Positions 4,822 through 49,156 of a stretch of DNA of 64,000 bases are shown here, piece by piece. A program made the position numbers and the translations under genes. The stretch covers positions 199,152-263,151 of the forward strand of contig NZ_LMSL01000039.1 of NCBI RefSeq assembly GCF_001428405.1, in the 5' to 3' direction. Within the stretch, counting starts at the first letter, position 1. Each line of letters opens with the position of its first letter. This DNA is from Frateuria sp. Soil773. GTDB lineage: Bacteria > Pseudomonadota > Gammaproteobacteria > Xanthomonadales > Rhodanobacteraceae. The notes beneath the pieces are model-generated. The model was not told the origin of the DNA and did no database searches. It saw only the letters and a list, made by a program, of their open reading frames with translations.

Positions 4822-4906
<85 letters not shown>

Positions 4907-4954
4907 ATCAGACAATCCGAGGATAGCCGATGGCGTCCGAGGAAGTCCAAGAAA

Positions 4955-4976
4955 CCCCGCTCCGGCGGGGTTTTTT
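4955..4976 (+). terminator. Rho-independent terminator after tRNA-Leu
   Basis: CCCCGC (4955-4960), loop TCCG, GCGGGG (4965-4970) and six Ts form a compact intrinsic terminator. It ends tRNA-Leu transcription and insulates the integrase gene from it. Confidence 0.88.
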
Positions 4977-5033
4977 GTTGGTTTTTGCGTCCGATGCGGT
5001 CCGACCCGGATCGCTTGCAGCTCAACTCATACA

Positions 5034-5057
5034 TGGGTACATTCCTGGGTACATTCC
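5034..5057 (+). repeat. Tandem 12-base repeat upstream of the integrase
   Basis: TGGGTACATTCC occurs twice in perfect head-to-tail order, 22 bases before the integrase ATG and 127 bases from the tRNA end. Tandem repeats in this position of an ICE are typical integrase arm-binding or excisionase-binding sites. That role is inference. Confidence 0.5.
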
Positions 5058-5079
5058 GGAAGCCGAACCTCGCCCTGCG

Positions 5080-6462
5080 ATGCTCACGGAAATCGCCATC
5101 AAGTCGCTGAAACCGAAGGCGAAAGTCTATCGCGTTCCGGACACGGCGGGCTTGTGCCTCGAAGTGCATCCGAACGGGCGCAAGCATTGGCGTTTCCGCT
5201 ATCACTACGCCCGCAAGGAACAGATGATGGCGCTGGGACCTTGGCCGGTGCTGTCCCTCGCCCTCGCCCGCCGCAAGCGCGACGACGCGCGGCGGTTGCT
5301 CTACGACGGCATCGACCCGGTTCGGCACAAGCGTGAGCAGGCCGAGGCTCGCCTGCGCGAACGCGACGGGCTGTTCCCGATCGTCGCCAAGGCATGGCTC
5401 GCGTTCAAGGAAGGCACGGTCGGCAGCGAGACCTACCGCAAGATGACGTTGGTGATCGATGGTGATCTGATCCCCGCCCTGCGGCGTCACTCGGTCACCA
5501 CGCTCACGACCAAGGATTGTACACCGGTACTGCGCGACATCGCCGCACGCGCGCCCAATCTGGCGACCAAGGCTCGGCAGTACCTCAACGGCATCGTCGA
5601 CTACGCCATCAAGGAAGGCTTGCGCGAGGACGGCAAGGTGCTGGCACTGCGCGGCACCATTCCGGCCTACGAGAAGCACCACATCGCGGCGATCACCCGT
5701 CCCGACGAACTCGGTCCGTTGCTTCGCGCCATCGACGGCTACGGCTCGCCGACGACGCGCGATGCATTGCTGTACGCCTCCTGGACGGCGCTGCGCCCCG
5801 CCCTCGTCGCCTCGGCGCAATGGCAGCACATCGACCTCGACGCCGCCGAATGGCACATCCCTGGCGCGTTGATGAAAATGGGACACGACCACATCGTGCC
5901 GCTGCCGCGCCAGGCGATCGCCATGCTGCGCGCTCGCCGCGCCGCGCTCCCCGCACGGCAGGCCTACGTGTTCCCGTCGCCCGCTCGGCAGACGACGCCG
6001 CACCTGCACAGAGATGCCCTGAGCAAGGCGCTGCGGGACATGGGGTTCCAGGGCAAGCACGCCACGCACGGCTTCCGCGGCACCTTGCGTACGATGGCGC
6101 GGGAACGCCTGGGCGTGGACATCGACGTGCTCGAAGCGCAGCTCGCCCACGCCAAGCGGGGCGAGGTGCAGAAGGCCTACGACCGCACCACCTTCGACGA
6201 TCAGCGCCGCGAGGTCATGCAGACCTGGGCGGACTATCTCGACCAGCGCCGCGCACAGGTGACAACGTCCACGCACGGCACGGCTACCGCCCGTCCAGCA
6301 GCCGACGAATATCCTCCGCACGCCACGCGGTTATCCGCTCGCCAAGGACGTGCGTCGGCGGCGGGTAGCGGCCGGACTTCACGCCCGCCCACCAAGTCGA
6401 GCGCGAGACGGGAATCAGCGGCGGGATCGCCGGTCGACCGCGGTGCGCGGGCCGGCCGATGA
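5080..6462 (+). CDS. int: Tyrosine recombinase, ICE integrase
   Basis: The integrase catalyses site-specific insertion and excision of the element at tRNA-Leu. The 460-residue protein has an N-terminal arm-binding domain of the P4-integrase type (IAIKSLKPKAKVYRVPD ... GLCLEVHPNGRKHW) and a catalytic domain with Arg239 (WTALRP), His330 and Arg333 (HGFR), His357 (LAH) and nucleophile Tyr367 (KAYDR). I chose the ATG at 5080 because the longer frame (from 4930) would translate through the terminator and the tandem repeats. The C-terminal 60 residues are low-complexity and lie opposite the AlpA gene. Confidence 0.93.
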   Translation: MLTEIAIKSLKPKAKVYRVPDTAGLCLEVHPNGRKHWRFRYHYARKEQMMALGPWPVLSLALARRKRDDARRLLYDGIDPVRHKREQAEARLRERDGLFPIVAKAWLAFKEGTVGSETYRKMTLVIDGDLIPALRRHSVTTLTTKDCTPVLRDIAARAPNLATKARQYLNGIVDYAIKEGLREDGKVLALRGTIPAYEKHHIAAITRPDELGPLLRAIDGYGSPTTRDALLYASWTALRPALVASAQWQHIDLDAAEWHIPGALMKMGHDHIVPLPRQAIAMLRARRAALPARQAYVFPSPARQTTPHLHRDALSKALRDMGFQGKHATHGFRGTLRTMARERLGVDIDVLEAQLAHAKRGEVQKAYDRTTFDDQRREVMQTWADYLDQRRAQVTTSTHGTATARPAADEYPPHATRLSARQGRASAAGSGRTSRPPTKSSARRESAAGSPVDRGARAGR

Positions 6463-23268: not shown

Positions 23269-23517
23269 TCAGAACTTGGGCGGCTCCTTGGATGGCGTAT
23301 AAACCGGCTTGCCGTTACCCATGAACAGGCGATGCCTCGCTTCGGAAGCAGCATTGCACTCCGCAGCACCCATCTTGGCGTGATCGCTGTCGCACTGCCG
23401 CTCGACCTCCCGTAATCGGTCGGGGTGGGCGACGAGAAAATCCACCGAGTCACTTGACTGTGAAGGACTGCAGCCGGACAACAGCGCCAAACCGATCAAC
23501 ATCGTCATCTGCTTCAT
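23269..23517 (-). CDS. EexN-like lipoprotein
   Basis: An 82-residue lipoprotein: signal [16 protein letters not shown], then a short mature domain with [17 protein letters not shown] and [13 protein letters not shown]. The HP-x-R-x3-E...C...C-x-A-A/S pattern matches EexN-type entry-exclusion lipoproteins. Its ATG overlaps the LysR stop by four bases, so it is translated with that regulator. Its position inside the cargo rather than in the trb operon is unusual. Confidence 0.68.
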
Positions 23518-24458
23518 GGCTCGATTCCCTCAGAAGAGCCAGGCGGCGTGGTACAAGTGGCGGAATCTGGCGACTCAAGGGTATTCACCCGTTCGACAAA
23601 TCGTTTGAGGCTCTCCGATGGTTCGGCGTCCTGTCGCAGCAGATAGGTAATCAGCCTCAACGAGCTTTCCTTCAGCGGACGTGCCACGACGCCGGGCTCT
23701 CGGCTCGCTGCGATATGCGAGGCGCTGGCCAGTGCCAGCGCGAAACCGGAAGCGACCATCACCATCATGAGATCAAAGGACTTGACCCGTTCGACGACCA
23801 TGGGCTCCTGATCCACACCGCGGAGGATATGATCGATATGACGGCAGTAGCCCTCGCAAAAGTGCGAGTCGCCCATCACCAGCGGATAGCGCAATACCTC
23901 GGCAAGCGGAATGCGCTCATACGCCAGCAGCGGATGTCGGGCCGGTACTGCAACATGCACCGCGTCGCTCCACGCCGGCGTGGCCAGGATGCCATCGCCC
24001 ACATCGGCCGACTGCGCGAATCCCGCGTCGTATAAGCCCTCGTGCAGCCCTTTGATCTGTTGCGACAATGGGACTTCAGAGAGACGAATGGTGACATCCG
24101 GGGCTTCCTGCCGGGACAAGGCCATAAGCGAGGCCAAGCGCGACGGCGTGATGCCGTCGGACAACGCGATGCAAAGTTGACCACGAAAGCCCGCCGCAAC
24201 AGCCTGCACGCTGGTACGCGCTTGATCCAGCGCGGCGAACACACGCGGAGCGTGCTCCAAAAACACCTTGCCGGCTCTCGTCAACCGTGTACTGCGCGTG
24301 TTGCGAACGAATAGCAACGCGCCAAGGTCCTCTTCCAGCTCCTTGATCGTGCGCGACAACGGCGACTGGTCGATGTGCAGTCGGTCGGCGGCACGGGCGA
24401 AGTGCAACTCCTCTGCTAGGACGAGGAAGCAACGCAAATGACGAAGATCCGTACGCAT
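23514..24458 (-). CDS. LysR-family transcriptional regulator
   Basis: The 314-residue protein has an N-terminal winged HTH (LRHLRCFLVLAEELHFARAA, then QSPLSRTIKELEEDLG) and a type 2 periplasmic-binding-like effector domain (GFRGQLCIALSDGITPSRLA). It lies 16 bases downstream of dsbD and is fused by a four-base overlap to the EexN-like gene. It probably controls the redox genes, possibly itself included; the co-inducer is unknown. Confidence 0.92.
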   Translation of the reverse strand: MRTDLRHLRCFLVLAEELHFARAADRLHIDQSPLSRTIKELEEDLGALLFVRNTRSTRLTRAGKVFLEHAPRVFAALDQARTSVQAVAAGFRGQLCIALSDGITPSRLASLMALSRQEAPDVTIRLSEVPLSQQIKGLHEGLYDAGFAQSADVGDGILATPAWSDAVHVAVPARHPLLAYERIPLAEVLRYPLVMGDSHFCEGYCRHIDHILRGVDQEPMVVERVKSFDLMMVMVASGFALALASASHIAASREPGVVARPLKESSLRLITYLLRQDAEPSESLKRFVERVNTLESPDSATCTTPPGSSEGIEP

Positions 24459-39930: not shown

Positions 39931-41889
39931 TCACGTGATTGACATGCCCCTCTGCCGTCCGATGTCCCAAGACACGCCGCCGCTGCGTACGGTTGCGGCA
40001 AGCTGCTGCCCCAGCCGCTGTTCGATCACCGGCTTCCACGGCACCAAGCTGAATCCCATGCCGTCATCGAGCATGGCGTAGCGTCCGCTGGCGAGCAGGA
40101 CGCTACGCCGGTAGATGCCCGCCACGCGCTGCCCGTCGGCCACCGGCCGATGCTCCAGGCCGGTTTCGCTGGCGATGTCCTGCGAAGCTTTCGCCAGTTC
40201 GCGCCCTCGTAACGTCGCCAGCAGGTTGCGCGTGAGGACGACGCGCTGCCCGCGCCGCTCGGCTAGCCCCTGTTCGACCAGGAAGTCGGCACGCTGGTGT
40301 AGCGCGTCCTTTACCTCGACCCCAAAGCCCAGGTTGCCCAGCCCCTGGCCGCCGCCGATCAACTGCTGGTCGAGCCAGGTGGCGCCGATAACGCGGGTCT
40401 GCCGCTCGATCGGCAAGTGCGATTTCAGCTCTGCCGCTACACCGCCGCCGAGCCGCTGCGCGTCGTACTGGCGACCTCGCTCCTCCAAATCGTCGGGCAC
40501 ACGCCAGACGCCTTCGGCCTCGCGCTCTACGATACCGGCGCGGCGAAGGGCTTCGAGCCGGCGCACGTGGGTCGCCACCACCTCGCGCGGATCACGATCG
40601 GGCGTGGCCTGCCCTTGCGCCATGGCCACGTGATGGTCGGTGCGGTACACGCCATCGACGGCTAGTCCGGCGATATTCCGGTCCGCCGCACGCATATCGG
40701 CCGAACCCTTCACTTCCACCACGGCGCCAGTCGGGTACTGCTCCGGCTCCGACCGTGGCGGCAGCGCAACGTAGTGCGCTTTGCCATCCGTGCCATCAAG
40801 GATCAGATAGTCCTTGTCGTGCAGCTCGTCGGCCAACCCTTTGCCGACGACACGGCCCACAAGGACGCGCCCCTCTTCCCCGGCCTGGAATACGGTCAAC
40901 TCGCGCTGCCGGCCACGCATGGCTCGCTGCATCGTACGGATGATGTCACCGCGCTCGCCCATGGCCCGCAGGGTCGGCTCGGCGTCGGCGTGGATCGCCC
41001 AGGTGCCGGGCGGCCGCTCGGTCGCCAGGCCCATCTGCTGCAAGCGTTGCAGGCGTCCAAGCAGCAGTTGTCGTTGTCGTTGCAGCTTGGGGGCAGCCAA
41101 GGTTTCCGGCCGCAGCAAGCCGTCCAGGGCCTCGCGCTGCAAGGTACGGTCCAGACCCGTCCAGCGCTCCTGATCGACTTCGCGCCGCATGGCGTGCCGC
41201 ATCTCCAGTTCGGTACGCGGCCCCAGCCATTCGGTCGCCAGTTCCGACGCCCGCCGGCGCATTCCCTTGGCAATGTAGTCGCGGGCGATAATGAGATCCT
41301 TGCCGGTGTCATCCTTGCCGCGCAGGACGATGTGCGTGTGCGGGTTGTCGGTGTTCCAGTGATCGACTGCCACCCATTCCAGCCGGGTGCCCAGGTCGGC
41401 TTCCACGCGCGCCATCAGGTGGCGCGTGTAGGTGCGCAGGTCATCGATGTGTTCGGCATCCTCCGGCGAGACGATGAAGCGGAACTGGTGGCGGTCATCG
41501 GCGCCGCGTTCCTTGAACGCGTCGAGGTCGGCGGCATCGGTCGTCGACCCGTAGGCGTGGCCCGGCCCGCCCTGGCGGTCGACGCCTTCGCGCTCGATGT
41601 AGCGCAGGTGCGCAGCGGTCGAGCGTCGGCCGGCTTGTTTCAGGTTGACCAGCCGCACCTTGACAGTAACGCGCCGGGCGTTCGGCCCAAGGCCCCGGCC
41701 CGCAAAGCGCGCCGCGACGTGGCCGCGCCCAAGTCGAGCACCGGGACGTTGGCCGGCTTTGCGGATCGTCTTGCCGGCCCGCGCGCCGGCCTTGCTGGTC
41801 TGCCGCAGCACTTGGTTGATGAAGGCGTCGCCGCGATGTCTGGGCGCCCCTGGCCGGATACGGAAACGGTCGTCGTCGTGGCGGCTCAT
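39931..41889 (-). CDS. MOBP-type relaxase with DUF3363 domain
   Basis: The relaxase nicks oriT and leads the transferred strand. The 652-residue protein has a candidate catalytic tyrosine in AHLRYIEREG (Tyr97), the metal-binding histidines His177, His184 and His186 in HWNTDNPHTHIVLRG, and a long DUF3363 C-terminal region (RERGDIIRTMQRAMRGRQREL-like helices; VVEVKGSADMRAADRNI). GGAGGGAG precedes the ATG at 41889. It is separated from traG by the 20-kb cargo. Confidence 0.93.
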   Translation of the reverse strand: MSRHDDDRFRIRPGAPRHRGDAFINQVLRQTSKAGARAGKTIRKAGQRPGARLGRGHVAARFAGRGLGPNARRVTVKVRLVNLKQAGRRSTAAHLRYIEREGVDRQGGPGHAYGSTTDAADLDAFKERGADDRHQFRFIVSPEDAEHIDDLRTYTRHLMARVEADLGTRLEWVAVDHWNTDNPHTHIVLRGKDDTGKDLIIARDYIAKGMRRRASELATEWLGPRTELEMRHAMRREVDQERWTGLDRTLQREALDGLLRPETLAAPKLQRQRQLLLGRLQRLQQMGLATERPPGTWAIHADAEPTLRAMGERGDIIRTMQRAMRGRQRELTVFQAGEEGRVLVGRVVGKGLADELHDKDYLILDGTDGKAHYVALPPRSEPEQYPTGAVVEVKGSADMRAADRNIAGLAVDGVYRTDHHVAMAQGQATPDRDPREVVATHVRRLEALRRAGIVEREAEGVWRVPDDLEERGRQYDAQRLGGGVAAELKSHLPIERQTRVIGATWLDQQLIGGGQGLGNLGFGVEVKDALHQRADFLVEQGLAERRGQRVVLTRNLLATLRGRELAKASQDIASETGLEHRPVADGQRVAGIYRRSVLLASGRYAMLDDGMGFSLVPWKPVIEQRLGQQLAATVRSGGVSWDIGRQRGMSIT

Positions 41890-42325
41890 GCGACGGCTCC
41901 CTCCCTGTCCAACGCCGCCCCGCGCGCGAAGCACGCGCCTTCACACCTGCCAGCGCTGCGCTGCGCACGCTCGCGGCACGCTGCCGACCCTTGGCGCGTG
42001 CCGCGCCACCCCCATGTGCAGACGGCTCTTTCGCGCCACGGAGTGCTGCGACCCTTTATCTTGCCCTGCGCCTTTGACTTGCGCCGTCGCTCCAATCTGC
42101 AGCGCGCTGGCGGTGCAGCACCTCGTACAGCGTGACCGTGGGCGCGCGTCCGCCATGCCACCGGCATGGTGCGCTCGGGGTAAGCCATCTGCACGGGGCG
42201 AGACCTCGCCGGATGTCGCGCGACGTGCGGTGCGAAGGCACCCGCACGACCCGCGCGACGACACGGAGGGAACCACCGCAACGACAGGCCGATGGACACG
42301 GCGAAGCGTAGCGAGTCGGCGGCCA
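41890..42325 (-). other. Candidate oriT region
   Basis: This 436-base gap between traF and the relaxase gene has no convincing gene. It contains TATCTTG/CCC at 42057-42066, close to the IncP/MOBP nick consensus YATCCTG/Y, with the predicted nick between 42063 and 42064 on the plus strand. It also holds a large stem-loop at 42215-42259 (arms GTCGCGCG/CGCGCGAC, then CGTGCGG/CCGCACG) and a second inverted repeat GGCGAG-AC-CTCGCC at 42197-42210. Location next to the relaxase supports an origin of transfer. Confidence 0.55.
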
Positions 42326-42901
42326 TCATCGGCGTGTCTCCAGCCACACCGGATGCGCGATGCCGAGCACGGCAAATGCGCTTACTGGGCCGAAGTAGCG
42401 ACTGTCAAACGACGCCGGATTCGTCGTGCCGAGCAGGAACAGTTCGCCAGGACGAAGGCGCCGGCACTGCGGCCAGAATGGCAGCGGCCGGCCCATACCA
42501 TCCCTGCGCAGTACGATGGCCACCAGCACGCCGCCGATGCGCACGCGACCGTCGGTTACGCACACTCGTTGCGGCGCGACCGCAGCGACCGGCTTGAGCA
42601 GCGGAACACCCCTCGGCAGGTAGCCGCGTCGCGCGGCCAGCGCCGCGGCAGCGGCCGGCAGCGGTACCAGCACGAGGCTCCCGACGTGCGGCGCCGATAC
42701 GCCGGGTTTGGGCGGATCGACGCGATACCAGCCGACCGCCACGCTGTCGGACGGGTTGTAGACGAAGCGCGGCAGCGGCGACACGAAAAATGCCCAGGCC
42801 AGCGCAGCGAGGCCGCATGCCGAAAGGCTCGCCAGTACGAGGCGAGCGCGACGGCGCGAGCGAGGACATGCAGGCCTGTCGAGTGCCGAGGACGTCGTCA
42901 T
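42326..42901 (-). CDS. traF: Conjugative transfer signal peptidase TraF (S26)
   Basis: TraF is the S26-type peptidase that matures and cyclises the TrbC pilin in IncP-type systems. The 191-residue protein has an N-terminal membrane anchor (ARLVLASLSACGLAALAWAF), the active-site serine segment VYNPSDSVAVGWYRV, the region PLLKPVAAVAPQRVCV that supplies the catalytic lysine, and LFLLGTTNPASFDSRYFGPV. The start overlaps the DUF2840 stop. Confidence 0.9.
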   Translation of the reverse strand: MTTSSALDRPACPRSRRRARLVLASLSACGLAALAWAFFVSPLPRFVYNPSDSVAVGWYRVDPPKPGVSAPHVGSLVLVPLPAAAAALAARRGYLPRGVPLLKPVAAVAPQRVCVTDGRVRIGGVLVAIVLRRDGMGRPLPFWPQCRRLRPGELFLLGTTNPASFDSRYFGPVSAFAVLGIAHPVWLETRR

Positions 42902-43422
42902 TGCAGCACCCTCCCGGCAAGCCAGGCGGCATGCCGCGCAGCGGTGTAGTCCGGCAGCGGCTGGTGGGCCGCCAGGCGGTTGCCCAGCGTGCGCCAGTAC
43001 GCGGGCGACACGTCGGTGGCGGCCGTGCCCTGCGCCTCAATGGCGTCGATGCGTTCCAGCGCGGCCCGCACCTGGCATTCGCTCTCGGCATGCAGCAGCA
43101 GACGCGCACCGGGTTGCACGCCGGGGATGCGCTGCATGGCGTCCAACGGTGTGCAGGCTTGCATCACCATGAGCTGCCAGCGCGTTGTGCTGTAGTCGTT
43201 GGCTTCCCAGCGGATGCGACAGAAGATCGACGCCGGCACGAACACGGCGACGCGTCGCCAGCGATCCCACGCCATGACACGCACCGGCGCGCCGAAGCGC
43301 AGGTAGAGATTCAGGCGTCGCGCGACGAAGGCCAGCGAGACGCGCGTCAGCGCCGCCTGGCCGGCGAGCGCGGGTAACGGCTGCGGCGACGCGTTCGCGG
43401 CCGCCTGCGTGGCAACATTCAT
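42898..43422 (-). CDS. DUF2840 domain-containing protein
   Basis: A 174-residue protein with LTRVSLAFVARRLNLYLRFG and RRVAVFVPASIFCRIRWEAN, the pattern of DUF2840 proteins found directly upstream of traF in Tn4371-like ICEs. No catalytic motif is visible and the role in transfer is unknown. It overlaps both neighbours by four bases. Confidence 0.85.
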   Translation of the reverse strand: MNVATQAAANASPQPLPALAGQAALTRVSLAFVARRLNLYLRFGAPVRVMAWDRWRRVAVFVPASIFCRIRWEANDYSTTRWQLMVMQACTPLDAMQRIPGVQPGARLLLHAESECQVRAALERIDAIEAQGTAATDVSPAYWRTLGNRLAAHQPLPDYTAARHAAWLAGRVLQ

Positions 43423-43670
43423 GGCGTGTACTCCGGGAACTCGCGCTCCAGCAGTACGCGCAACAGCTCGGCGACGGTCACGCCCTGCGTGAACGCCGAG
43501 ACCTTGATGCGCGCACGTAGCGCAGGGGTGACGTCCAGCGTCAGACGCGCGGTGTAGAGATCGCCTTTCTGGAGCGCTTCGCCATCGCCCTGGCGAACCC
43601 ACGCTTCGGCGTGCGGGTCCGCCGGCGGACGCGCGCCGATGGCGATGCGCTTGCCGCTGGTCGCGTTCAT
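43419..43670 (-). CDS. Small conserved protein paired with ParA, ribbon-helix-helix-like
   Basis: An 83-residue protein (MNATSGKRIAIGARPPADPH ...) whose second half, ARLTLDVTPALRARIKVSAF followed by GVTVAELLRVLLEREFP, has the strand-helix-helix pattern of ribbon-helix-helix DNA-binding proteins. It overlaps parA by four bases, the position of a ParB-like or regulatory partner; an ATG at 43679 would add three residues. The partner role is inference. Confidence 0.7.
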   Translation of the reverse strand: MNATSGKRIAIGARPPADPHAEAWVRQGDGEALQKGDLYTARLTLDVTPALRARIKVSAFTQGVTVAELLRVLLEREFPEYTP

Positions 43671-44305
43671 GATGACCATCGCAACAGTTCATCGGCGAGG
43701 GCGGCGATCTCGCGTGCGGCGATGCTGCCGGGCACCGTCTCGCGGGCGAGACGCCCTGCGGCCGCGCTGTCAGCGAACACGATGCGCTGATGCACCTCGG
43801 CGCGCAGCGCCGGGAAGGGTTGCTCCGCGAGCGCGCCGCGTGCCTCGCGGCCGATGATCGTCGTGCTGACGCGCCGGTTGATGACGAAGGACGCGCGCAA
43901 CGCCGGACGGAACATCTGTGCCTCGCGGATCAGCGCCACCATCTCTGCCGACGCCCACAGGTCGTAGGGGCTGGGCTGCACCGGGATCAGCACGCGCTCG
44001 GCCGCCAGCAGCGCCGAGCGCGCCAGCGCGGCGATGCGCGGCGGGCCGTCGATGACGACATGATCGGCGCGACGGGCCAGCTCCGGCGCTTCCTGGTGCA
44101 GCGTCTCGCGGGCAAGGCCCACGGCGCTGAACAGCCGTGGCAAGCCCTGCTGGGCGCGTCGCTGCGTCCAGTCCAGTGCCGATCCCTGCGGGTCGGCATC
44201 GAGCAGGATGACCTGATGGCCACGCATCGCCAACTCGCCGGCGACGTGCGTGGCGAGCGTGGTCTTGCCGACGCCACCTTTCTGGTTGAGGAAGGCGACG
44301 ATCAT
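43667..44305 (-). CDS. parA: ParA-family partition ATPase
   Basis: The 212-residue protein has the deviant Walker A motif NQKGGVGKTT (residues 7-16), LLDADPQGSALDW and VIDGPPRIAAL. ParA ATPases position plasmids or excised ICEs on the nucleoid. The ATG at 44305 is preceded by GGGAGG. It lies immediately downstream of repA and the iterons, which supports replication and segregation of the excised circle. Confidence 0.93.
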   Translation of the reverse strand: MIVAFLNQKGGVGKTTLATHVAGELAMRGHQVILLDADPQGSALDWTQRRAQQGLPRLFSAVGLARETLHQEAPELARRADHVVIDGPPRIAALARSALLAAERVLIPVQPSPYDLWASAEMVALIREAQMFRPALRASFVINRRVSTTIIGREARGALAEQPFPALRAEVHQRIVFADSAAAGRLARETVPGSIAAREIAALADELLRWSS

Positions 44306-47907: not shown

Positions 47908-48043
47908 TTCCGGGTCAATTGAACCCGATGGACCCAACGGGGCCACACGCTGTTCACGCGCCAAGGCAGTCCCTCTTTGATCGATACGCAAGGCCACGCT
48001 TTGGCGCTCTGCGTGCCACGGTTTCATGTTGAATAGGACGCCC

Positions 48044-49156
48044 ATGAAAAGAGTGCTCACTGTTGGTCTGAAATATTCCGGCACCGCGATCGATGGCGTT
48101 GAATTCGACAACCTCGGGTTGTGCCAACCGTCCGTTGATCAGGAACGCGCAGCGTTCGCCCTGTACGAATACGATGTCATCGTCATTCATCCAAAGAGCT
48201 ATTCGCACTTCCTGTTCGGAGAGGAAGGCGAGTTCTCCAACTCTCCCAACGAGCTCGGTGATCTGAAGAGGAAGAAGGACCAGTACGACCTCGATACGGT
48301 ATTCGACAGTACGGATAGGGAGAAAGAGCTTGAGGCCGCCATCGCCGCTGGTGCGACGGTCGTCTGGTGCCTCGCCGAGCCCAAGCGAATGAATTTCTTC
48401 GGCTATCGGGAAACCTCATACGGTTACGCCGCGCCTGCAGTAGCAAAACTGGTCAAGCGCGGCGATCTCCAGCTCAAGAAAGGTCGACGGATGGGTGCTA
48501 TTGACCACGAAAGTCCGTTTGCGCGGTACTTTGCTTCCTTGGCTACAGCTGGATGGAGCCTTTGTCTGGCCGATGATGACCATGAGGGCTACGTCTCCAT
48601 CGCGTCCACACCCGAGGGCTACAGTCTGGGCGGACGCGTTGCCATCGGCTCGACAGCCGGCTGGCTCGTCACTCCGCCCTCCTCCGAAGCCGCCACCAAC
48701 AGGCTTATTCTCGATGCCGTCGAGTTGGTGAAAGCAGATCCCCATCAGGAAAAGTATCACGGGATTTTTCTGAGCCACACCAGTGCGGACAAACCATTCG
48801 TCCGGCAGCTTCGCAAGGATCTTCTCGAACACGGGGTACCTCAAGTGTGGGTGGATGAAGCCGAGATCGATGTCGGCGATTCGCTCACGGCAAAGATCGA
48901 AGAAGGTATGAAAGAGACCCGCTACATCGGGGTCGTATTATCCGCGAAATCCATTGATGCGCCGTGGGTCAAGAAGGAACTCGATATTGCGATCAACCGT
49001 GAAATCGCCAGCGGTGAAGTCGTCGTGCTTCCATTGCTGTATGAGAAATGCCAGCTCCCCGCCTTTCTGCAGGGCAAGCTCTACGCGGACTTCACCAGCT
49101 CAGAGGAATATGCCATCGGGTTGGCCAAACTATTGAGGCGACTGCGGATCAAGTAG
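48044..49156 (+). CDS. TIR-domain protein, probable defence effector
   Basis: The 370-residue protein has an N-terminal region of about 235 residues that I do not recognise and a C-terminal TIR domain from about residue 238 (GIFLSHTSADKPFVRQLRKD, VWVDEAEIDVGDSL). The catalytic glutamate of TIR NADases aligns with Glu312 in APWVKKELDIAI (W-x3-E). Bacterial TIR proteins deplete NAD or make cyclic signals on phage infection. The ATG at 48044 follows AGGA; base use is less GC-rich than the neighbouring backbone. The N-terminal part probably senses the trigger. Confidence 0.85.
   Translation: MKRVLTVGLKYSGTAIDGVEFDNLGLCQPSVDQERAAFALYEYDVIVIHPKSYSHFLFGEEGEFSNSPNELGDLKRKKDQYDLDTVFDSTDREKELEAAIAAGATVVWCLAEPKRMNFFGYRETSYGYAAPAVAKLVKRGDLQLKKGRRMGAIDHESPFARYFASLATAGWSLCLADDDHEGYVSIASTPEGYSLGGRVAIGSTAGWLVTPPSSEAATNRLILDAVELVKADPHQEKYHGIFLSHTSADKPFVRQLRKDLLEHGVPQVWVDEAEIDVGDSLTAKIEEGMKETRYIGVVLSAKSIDAPWVKKELDIAINREIASGEVVVLPLLYEKCQLPAFLQGKLYADFTSSEEYAIGLAKLLRRLRIK

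Follow-up and report, generated by a model that had tools for sequence, protein, structure and literature searches.

Gene organisation around the traF-relaxase gap

The stretch of DNA that was analysed (the window, 64 kb in total, from Frateuria sp. Soil773; all positions refer to it) carries a tight run of overlapping genes in the order parA, small protein, DUF2840, traF, linker frame and relaxase (Table 1). It further encodes TrbI, TrbG, TrbF, TrbL, TrbE and TrbB-type proteins and a TraG-type coupling protein, where some of the trb letters are presumptive, as they were assigned from Pfam names. The core genes of the Tn4371 family (int, repA, parA, traF, relaxase, traG and those trb genes that were assigned) are present, and the relaxase gene, traF, the linker frame, traG and the examined trb genes are all open. 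The gap between traF and the relaxase gene occupies the position of the oriT in Tn4371-family ICEs. The host element is a conjugative element of the Tn4371/RlxS type. A tRNA-Leu followed by a tyrosine integrase (4822-6462) adjoins the transfer cluster on its trbI side. Integration of the element into this tRNA gene was considered; a search of the own assembly with the 24-nt end of the tRNA-Leu returned a single other match, with 3 mismatches and on a different contig, and no clear repeat.

Table 1. Features of the traF-relaxase region and its neighbours
Feature	Position in the window	Strand	Basis or remark
RlxS-like MOBP relaxase with C-terminal DUF3363, 652 aa	39931-41889	-	PF11843, 5.4e-148
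Linker ORF, 147 codons	41886-42329	-	ATGA overlaps with traF and the relaxase gene; the whole oriT region lies inside
10-nt perfect inverted repeat CGCGGCACGC / GCGTGCCGCG	41972-42005	+	Repeat search
GTGCAGAC box	42016-42023	+	41-48 bases before the nick; 92/95 rows in place, 93/95 nearby
Imperfect inverted repeat TCGCGCCAC GGA GTGCTGCGA	42031-42051	+	Directly 5' of the nick core, relaxase side
Putative oriT core CCCTTTATCTTG/CCC	42052-42066	+	Conservation in relatives; proposed nick 42063/42064 on the + strand
45-base stem-loop of the original prediction	42215-42259		traF side; conserved in part
traF, S26 pilin-processing peptidase	42326-42901	-	PF10502, 4e-26; TIGR02771, 8.5e-22, under cut-off
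83-aa conserved protein	43419-43670	-	Ribbon-helix-helix weakly predicted
ParA-family ATPase	43667-44305	-	NF041546, 8.7e-78; weak VirC1 match, 5.3e-5, under cut-off

The relaxase also matches the RlxS model NF041267 (9.2e-198, 659 bits, under the cut-off of 850). Residues Y97, H177, H184 and H186 are invariant in 23 aligned relaxase sequences, and we take this tyrosine and the three histidines to be the catalytic residues. For a structure model of the relaxase domain (mean pLDDT 64.6) the best fold match was the MobA relaxase 2ns6 with an E value of 1.6e-3, and no match reached 0.001 or below.

Comparison of the 83-aa protein with PDB folds gave no match at E ≤ 0.001 and only weak ribbon-helix-helix matches. 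It was also considered as a VirC2-like accessory protein; a PDB profile search returned unrelated chains only, and the idea is kept as a lead. The protein, which is strongly conserved, is a possible accessory of the relaxosome, and together with ParA (43419-44305, - strand) it possibly forms a helper pair like VirC1/VirC2.

Other parts of the window and of the genome carry further features. A gene with a C-terminal TIR domain (48026-49156, + strand; PF13676, 1.6e-25) lies beside a small helix-turn-helix gene and is possibly anti-phage defence cargo. The cargo between traG and the relaxase gene (19000-39711) encodes redox and PLP-dependent enzymes and a LysR regulator (23514-24458), and by eye includes frames resembling a TonB receptor, peptidases and an anti-sigma and a sigma factor. 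On contig C40 of the same genome the remnant of a second DUF3363 relaxase gene (L002) was seen, which has two TAG stops and 58% identity over 60 residues.

The proposed nick core and its conservation

The original prediction had placed an IncP-like nick sequence, TATCTTG/CCC (a slash outside brackets marks the nick), upstream of the relaxase gene. This sequence, TATCTTGCCC, is indeed found at 42057-42066 on the + strand, and the predicted spacing of 174 bases to the relaxase gene holds when the ATG at 41889 is taken as gene start (a longer frame begins with the GTG at 41934). The MOBP motif (C/T)ATCCTG(C/T), as quoted in the consulted part of PMC3772185, is not matched exactly: the window has TATCTTGC, which differs by one base, as predicted, and falls in the broader ATC(C/T)TG form that includes IncM. 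On its own the 8-mer YATCYTGY is at chance level, since it occurs 15 times in the 64-kb window versus 12.25 expected, and 25 of 100 shuffled sequences contain it at least 15 times. The match is significant because of its position and its conservation, not because of the 8-mer count.

To assess conservation, relaxase starts in relatives were placed by alignment to the protein of the window. Thirteen of 111 loci were excluded for lack of a resolved relaxase start, mostly fragments plus the divergent full-length relaxases L100 and L101, and L001 was excluded as a copy of the window. The traF-relaxase gap was aligned across the relatives, as the original prediction had suggested. Among 98 loci, made up of the window and 97 relatives (82 distinct segments), 95 have the core ahead of the relaxase gene. 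The three others have different DNA upstream (L016), a run of N (L064) or a contig end (L079). These locus counts are inflated by relatedness, and several loci represent one genome in two collections; distinct sequences were used against duplicate genomes where so stated.

Most cores have the form CCTTTT(A/G)TCTTG/CC or CCTTCAATCTTG/CC. Among the 95 rows, CCTTTTATCTTG/CC occurs 56 times, CCTTTTGTCTTG/CC 24 times, CCTTCAATCTTG/CC 12 times and CCTTTTGTCTCG/CC twice, and CCCTTTATCTTG/CC is found once, in the window only. The distance between core and relaxase gene is identical in 79 of the 95 and deviates by at most 12 bases in the remainder. Positions -12 to +2 around the nick have a mean information content of 1.86 bits, and 11 of these 14 columns reach at least 95%, while the traF side (+60 to +200) has 0.85 bits and none of 140 columns at this level (83 distinct sequences, ungapped). 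When the three core types are mapped onto a quick tree of 94 relaxase rows, they require 3 changes versus a mean of 32.8 after shuffling: the oriT subtype tracks the relaxase tree.

For a more distant set, 398 genomes of the phylum were searched for DUF3363; 46 gave a match, and 30 loci were retrieved. L143-L148 (near relatives or the window) lie outside the set, and L159 and L168 were dropped, which left 22 loci that have a readable start and relaxase identities of 36-58%. The pattern GCA(A/G)GATAAA(A/G), which is TTTATC(T/C)TG/C on the other strand, is present in 14 of these 22, versus 0.01 expected from mononucleotide shuffles, and absent from the other 8. Two of the 14 core-bearing loci (L169, L171) carry the IncP form ATCCTG/C.

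In 233 genomes of the family, all 15 sites matching the A/G-type pattern adjoin a relaxase gene (the CCTTCAA type falls outside this pattern). A class-wide sample of 369 genomes gave four matches, the window, L120, L122 and L121; the sites in L120 and L122 are upstream of a DUF3363 relaxase gene, and the match in L121 was taken for chance. A plasmid search found 146 places in 107 records, some records having two. The five plasmid sites examined from these 107 records all adjoin a DUF3363 relaxase gene, and the MOB-suite types of these five plasmids include MOBP. Records of large Enterobacterales and Pseudomonas plasmids were seen to carry the oriT region. As for second or solitary oriT copies, two longer patterns found the site of the window and no other in the own genome. 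L112 matches a 13-base pattern exactly and was rejected as an oriT copy, as the flanking context is lacking.

Repeats, hairpins and a conserved box

The imperfect inverted repeat directly 5' of the core would by its position be the counterpart of REPT1 of the relative ICEKKS102Tn4677. In relatives the 22-base segment at this place has a mean hairpin z score of -1.8, with 25 of 44 distinct segments below -1, versus 0 to +0.6 for control segments at four other places. In the 14 distant core-bearing relatives, 13 segments beside the core have z scores below -1 (mean -3.0, mononucleotide shuffles). The segment of the window itself, with a z score of +0.21, is no stronger than shuffled sequences. 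Pair counting in 43 of 58 distinct relatives and the window revealed 14 cells that changed on both sides versus 4.0 after shuffling, and a covariation score of 0.085 versus 0.036 for shuffled alignments, one slid control being higher (0.102). In our reading the repeat occupies more than one register among the relatives.

Further towards the relaxase gene lies the GTGCAGAC box, which is possibly a site for an accessory protein. The 10-nt perfect inverted repeat is a possible counterpart of REPT2, to which it was matched by position only.

The original prediction had also pointed to a large stem-loop on the traF side of the core. This structure of 45 bases exists as described, with perfect 8-nt outer arms and 7-nt inner arms, the latter read off the sequence at 42224-42230 and 42242-42248. 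In relatives, 499 of 614 pair cells are kept in the outer arms and 469 of 541 in the inner arms; at least 7 of 8 outer pairs are found in 39 of 83 sequences, and at least 6 of 7 inner pairs in 59 of 83. As it is conserved in part only and lies on the side that is dispensable in ICEKKS102Tn4677 according to the consulted text of PMC11448139, we rejected it as an oriT hairpin. Five relatives (L010, L017, L025, L030, L056) have a 12-nt insertion in the loop, a length that is a multiple of three, and by eye this insertion appears to be self-pairing.

An open reading frame spans the gap

The linker frame starts in the stop codon of traF and finishes in the start codon of the relaxase gene, with ATGA at both ends. 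The traF-relaxase gap is thus not intergenic, and the oriT sits inside an open frame. We followed this frame in 94 loci including the window (L057, which has no traF, was excluded). In 90 of them no stop codon interrupts the frame between the traF stop and the relaxase ATGA at which it ends. The start ATG is found in 83 at position -4, counted from the end of the traF stop. In 91 loci the length from the traF stop to the core equals 2 mod 3; among distinct lengths this holds for 18 of 21 (p = 1e-6). Of the 90 linked loci, 85 read the core in one and the same frame and 5 in another. With the core omitted, the linker frame is fully open in 78 of 83 distinct gaps, as compared to 13-47 for the other five frames and 5.8% expected from mononucleotide shuffles; outside the core it has five stops in 4 alignment columns, versus 27-39 columns with stops in the other frames. 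Four loci lack the standard link. In L051 the frame stops 17 nt beyond the relaxase start, in L096 it extends 412 nt into the relaxase gene, and in L099 it ends 2 nt short of the start. The fourth is L014, where a one-base change in length was seen to turn linker and relaxase gene into a single long frame.

Little in the frame speaks for constraint on the encoded amino acids. We determined pN/pS in the 86 loci whose frame is intact, using 75 distinct sequences. The ratio on the traF side is 0.72 (other two frames: 0.92 and 0.98), over core and box 0.65 (0.89 and 0.77), and on the relaxase side 1.05, above both other frames (0.88 and 0.89). G+C content by codon position is flat (0.68, 0.71, 0.74), which sets the frame apart from its neighbours (traF: 0.73, 0.59, 0.76), and a Pfam search with the linker frame matched no family. 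A hypothetical protein is annotated on the frame in three plasmid records (L140, L141, L142), with 4-nt overlaps on either side; no gene is listed there in L138 and L139, for which the gene table is incomplete (a locus tag is apparently skipped in L138). The amino acids are barely constrained, and with the flat G+C and the pN/pS values of 0.72 on the traF side and 1.05 on the relaxase side, a protein function of the linker is unsupported.

Among the 14 distant relatives with a core, the linking frame is kept in one (L163). Since the other 13 have the core without this frame, the core is conserved as DNA. The open frame, the weak amino-acid constraint, the lack of a Pfam family and these 13 relatives lead us to read the sequence as a linker for translational coupling, which would be kept open for this purpose and would carry the oriT.

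Comparison with known oriT systems

The closest parallel is ICEKKS102Tn4677 of the Tn4371 family, for which the gap between traF and traI was demonstrated to be the oriT by mobilisation in 2024 (PMC11448139, consulted in part, as for all statements on this element). The remark of the original prediction that elements of this class usually have no annotated oriT therefore needs an update. According to this source, 58 bp retain oriT activity with the element in trans, and these comprise a 20-bp block that is conserved, together with a relaxase-side inverted repeat. Removal of the traF side is tolerated up to position 261, and loss of 261-298 abolishes transfer. The authors report that oriTfinder missed the site; in the text consulted the gap is called intergenic and the nick is left unmapped. 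Compared on the basis of the published text, element and window share the traF-relaxase gap and a conserved block; on the relaxase side of the block the window has an imperfect, weaker repeat as the putative counterpart of the inverted repeat. The 463-bp gap of the element belongs to the length class (1 mod 3) that a linker frame requires, and 463 is among the linked lengths in our data. Counting 174 bases back from the traI side, by arithmetic from the text, would place the nick near 289, within 261-298.

The motif CAAAAGG, proposed as a TraR half-site in ICEKKS102Tn4677, corresponds on the complementary strand to CCTTTTG, the core of the G-type that 26 of our 95 rows have. The window has CCCTTTA (complement TAAAGGG) instead and lacks this half-site. 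As CAAAAGG occurs in 26 of 95 rows and not in the window, a general contact with TraR is unsupported and the half-site does not define the group, but such a contact may hold for the G-type clade.

Similarities extend to other systems, again taken from the parts of the sources consulted. Like the window, ICEMlSym(R7A) has an RlxS relaxase typed as MOBP1 with the oriT just upstream, and it mobilises a plasmid with its cloned oriT (PMC11963761, PMC8627217). By description its gene order differs: rdfS, traF-msi107, then oriT and rlxS. RP4 (IncP), Agrobacterium VirD2 and H. pylori tfs4 share with the window a 5' inverted repeat and a MOBP/VirD2-like relaxase downstream of a motif of the type (C/T)ATCCTG(C/T) (PMC3772185); their nick regions have ATCCTG, whereas the window has ATCTTG. 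In the oriT of the IncM plasmid pCTX-M3, which was predicted from the IncI1 plasmid R64 and belongs to a plasmid of another group than the element of the window, the nick region is ACATCTTGT, and altering it results in a non-functional oriT (PMC7440800). ATCTTG is thus already a known nick form.

Discussion

Our data suggest that the region is very probably the cut site (oriT) for the transfer of a mobile bacterial element. The oriT and the position of the nick are well supported because the core is conserved in relatives and because the homologous gap of ICEKKS102Tn4677 was mobilised (PMC11448139, in the part consulted). In this respect the original prediction stands; its inclusion of the traF-side stem-loop in the oriT does not, as the pairs are kept only in part and this side is dispensable in the relative. 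Our joint reading is a Tn4371/RlxS-type oriT with the proposed nick, located inside a linker frame that would couple traF to the relaxase, to which we assign a probability of roughly 0.78.

On this reading, the relaxase encoded by the adjacent gene would recognise the core together with the inverted repeat directly 5' of it, cut the + strand at TTTATCTTG/CCC (42063/42064, position and strand being deduced) and remain attached to the new 5' end. traF, parA and repA would then probably be the first to enter the recipient, and the relaxase gene the last. Ribosomes leaving traF may read through the oriT part of the mRNA, which would couple relaxase synthesis to that of traF, and selection at the DNA level would maintain the oriT core within the frame. 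A tentative extension, to which we give slightly less than an even chance, is that the relaxosome bound to an oriT in a translated coupling frame blocks transcription of its own relaxase gene, resulting in feedback, with the frame kept for its openness and not for a protein.

That the gap is nothing but an oriT, and its open frame an untranslated by-product of G+C richness and close overlap of the neighbours, seems somewhat unlikely to us. The flat G+C by codon position, a pN/pS near 1 on the relaxase side and the lack of a Pfam match fit this explanation, as does the lack of a gene in the incomplete tables of L138 and L139. It does not account for a frame that is open far more often than the other five and than expected, for gap lengths that vary by multiples of three, or for the five linked loci that read the core in another frame and still reach the relaxase ATGA without a stop. 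These five loci also speak against a real transfer protein whose sequence (GKIKGRGT, VCTWGW) would explain part of the core conservation. We regard such a protein as highly improbable, although the open frame with its ATGA overlaps, the pN/pS values on the traF side and over core and box, which are below those of the other two frames, and the annotation of a hypothetical protein in three records would agree with it. The pN/pS on the relaxase side, the survival of the core in distant relatives without the linking frame, and the activity of 58 bp of DNA with the element in trans (PMC11448139, as consulted) argue against it.

That the conserved block serves the relaxase gene as a promoter or operator instead of being an oriT is scarcely credible. 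Its near-constant distance upstream of this gene would suit such a role, but the homologous gap renders a plasmid mobilisable in the relative (same source, in part), and the core comes within one base of the MOBP nick motif, with the exact ATCCTG/C in L169 and L171. A last question is whether the oriT of the window is a decayed copy that no longer works, which we consider improbable. The C that replaces T at -10 is unique among the 95 rows, and with the weak inverted repeat (z +0.21) it could mean that this copy is weakened; the T in GTGCTGCG points in the same direction. This T is also present in L042, however, several distant relatives (e.g., L150, L153) have CTTTATCTTG, and the linker frame and all the transfer genes examined are open.

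With these alternatives weighed, we return to the oriT within a coupling linker. The oriT of ICEBs1 is located close to or in nicK, so that an oriT in a gene is not unheard of. A small search in one literature library found no paper that treats oriT together with DUF3363 and no description of an oriT inside a coding frame. The consulted part of PMC3772185 mentions copies of the motif in two coding sequences, yet places the oriT in an intergenic region, and the phrase 'oriT located within' in the part of PMC6863613 consulted was discarded as it refers to the transfer region and not to a coding frame. The oriT thus belongs to a published family; the surrounding linker frame looks new, as no description was found in this search.

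Our analysis extends the published case and adds a proposed nick position where the 2024 paper left the nick unmapped. The motif TTTATC(T/C)TG/C, combined with the 5' inverted repeat and the GTGCAGAC box, could find oriTs that a standard predictor missed. If the linker is translated, the oriT belongs to a coding operon, deletion constructs would need rereading, and feedback control of relaxase synthesis is suggested.
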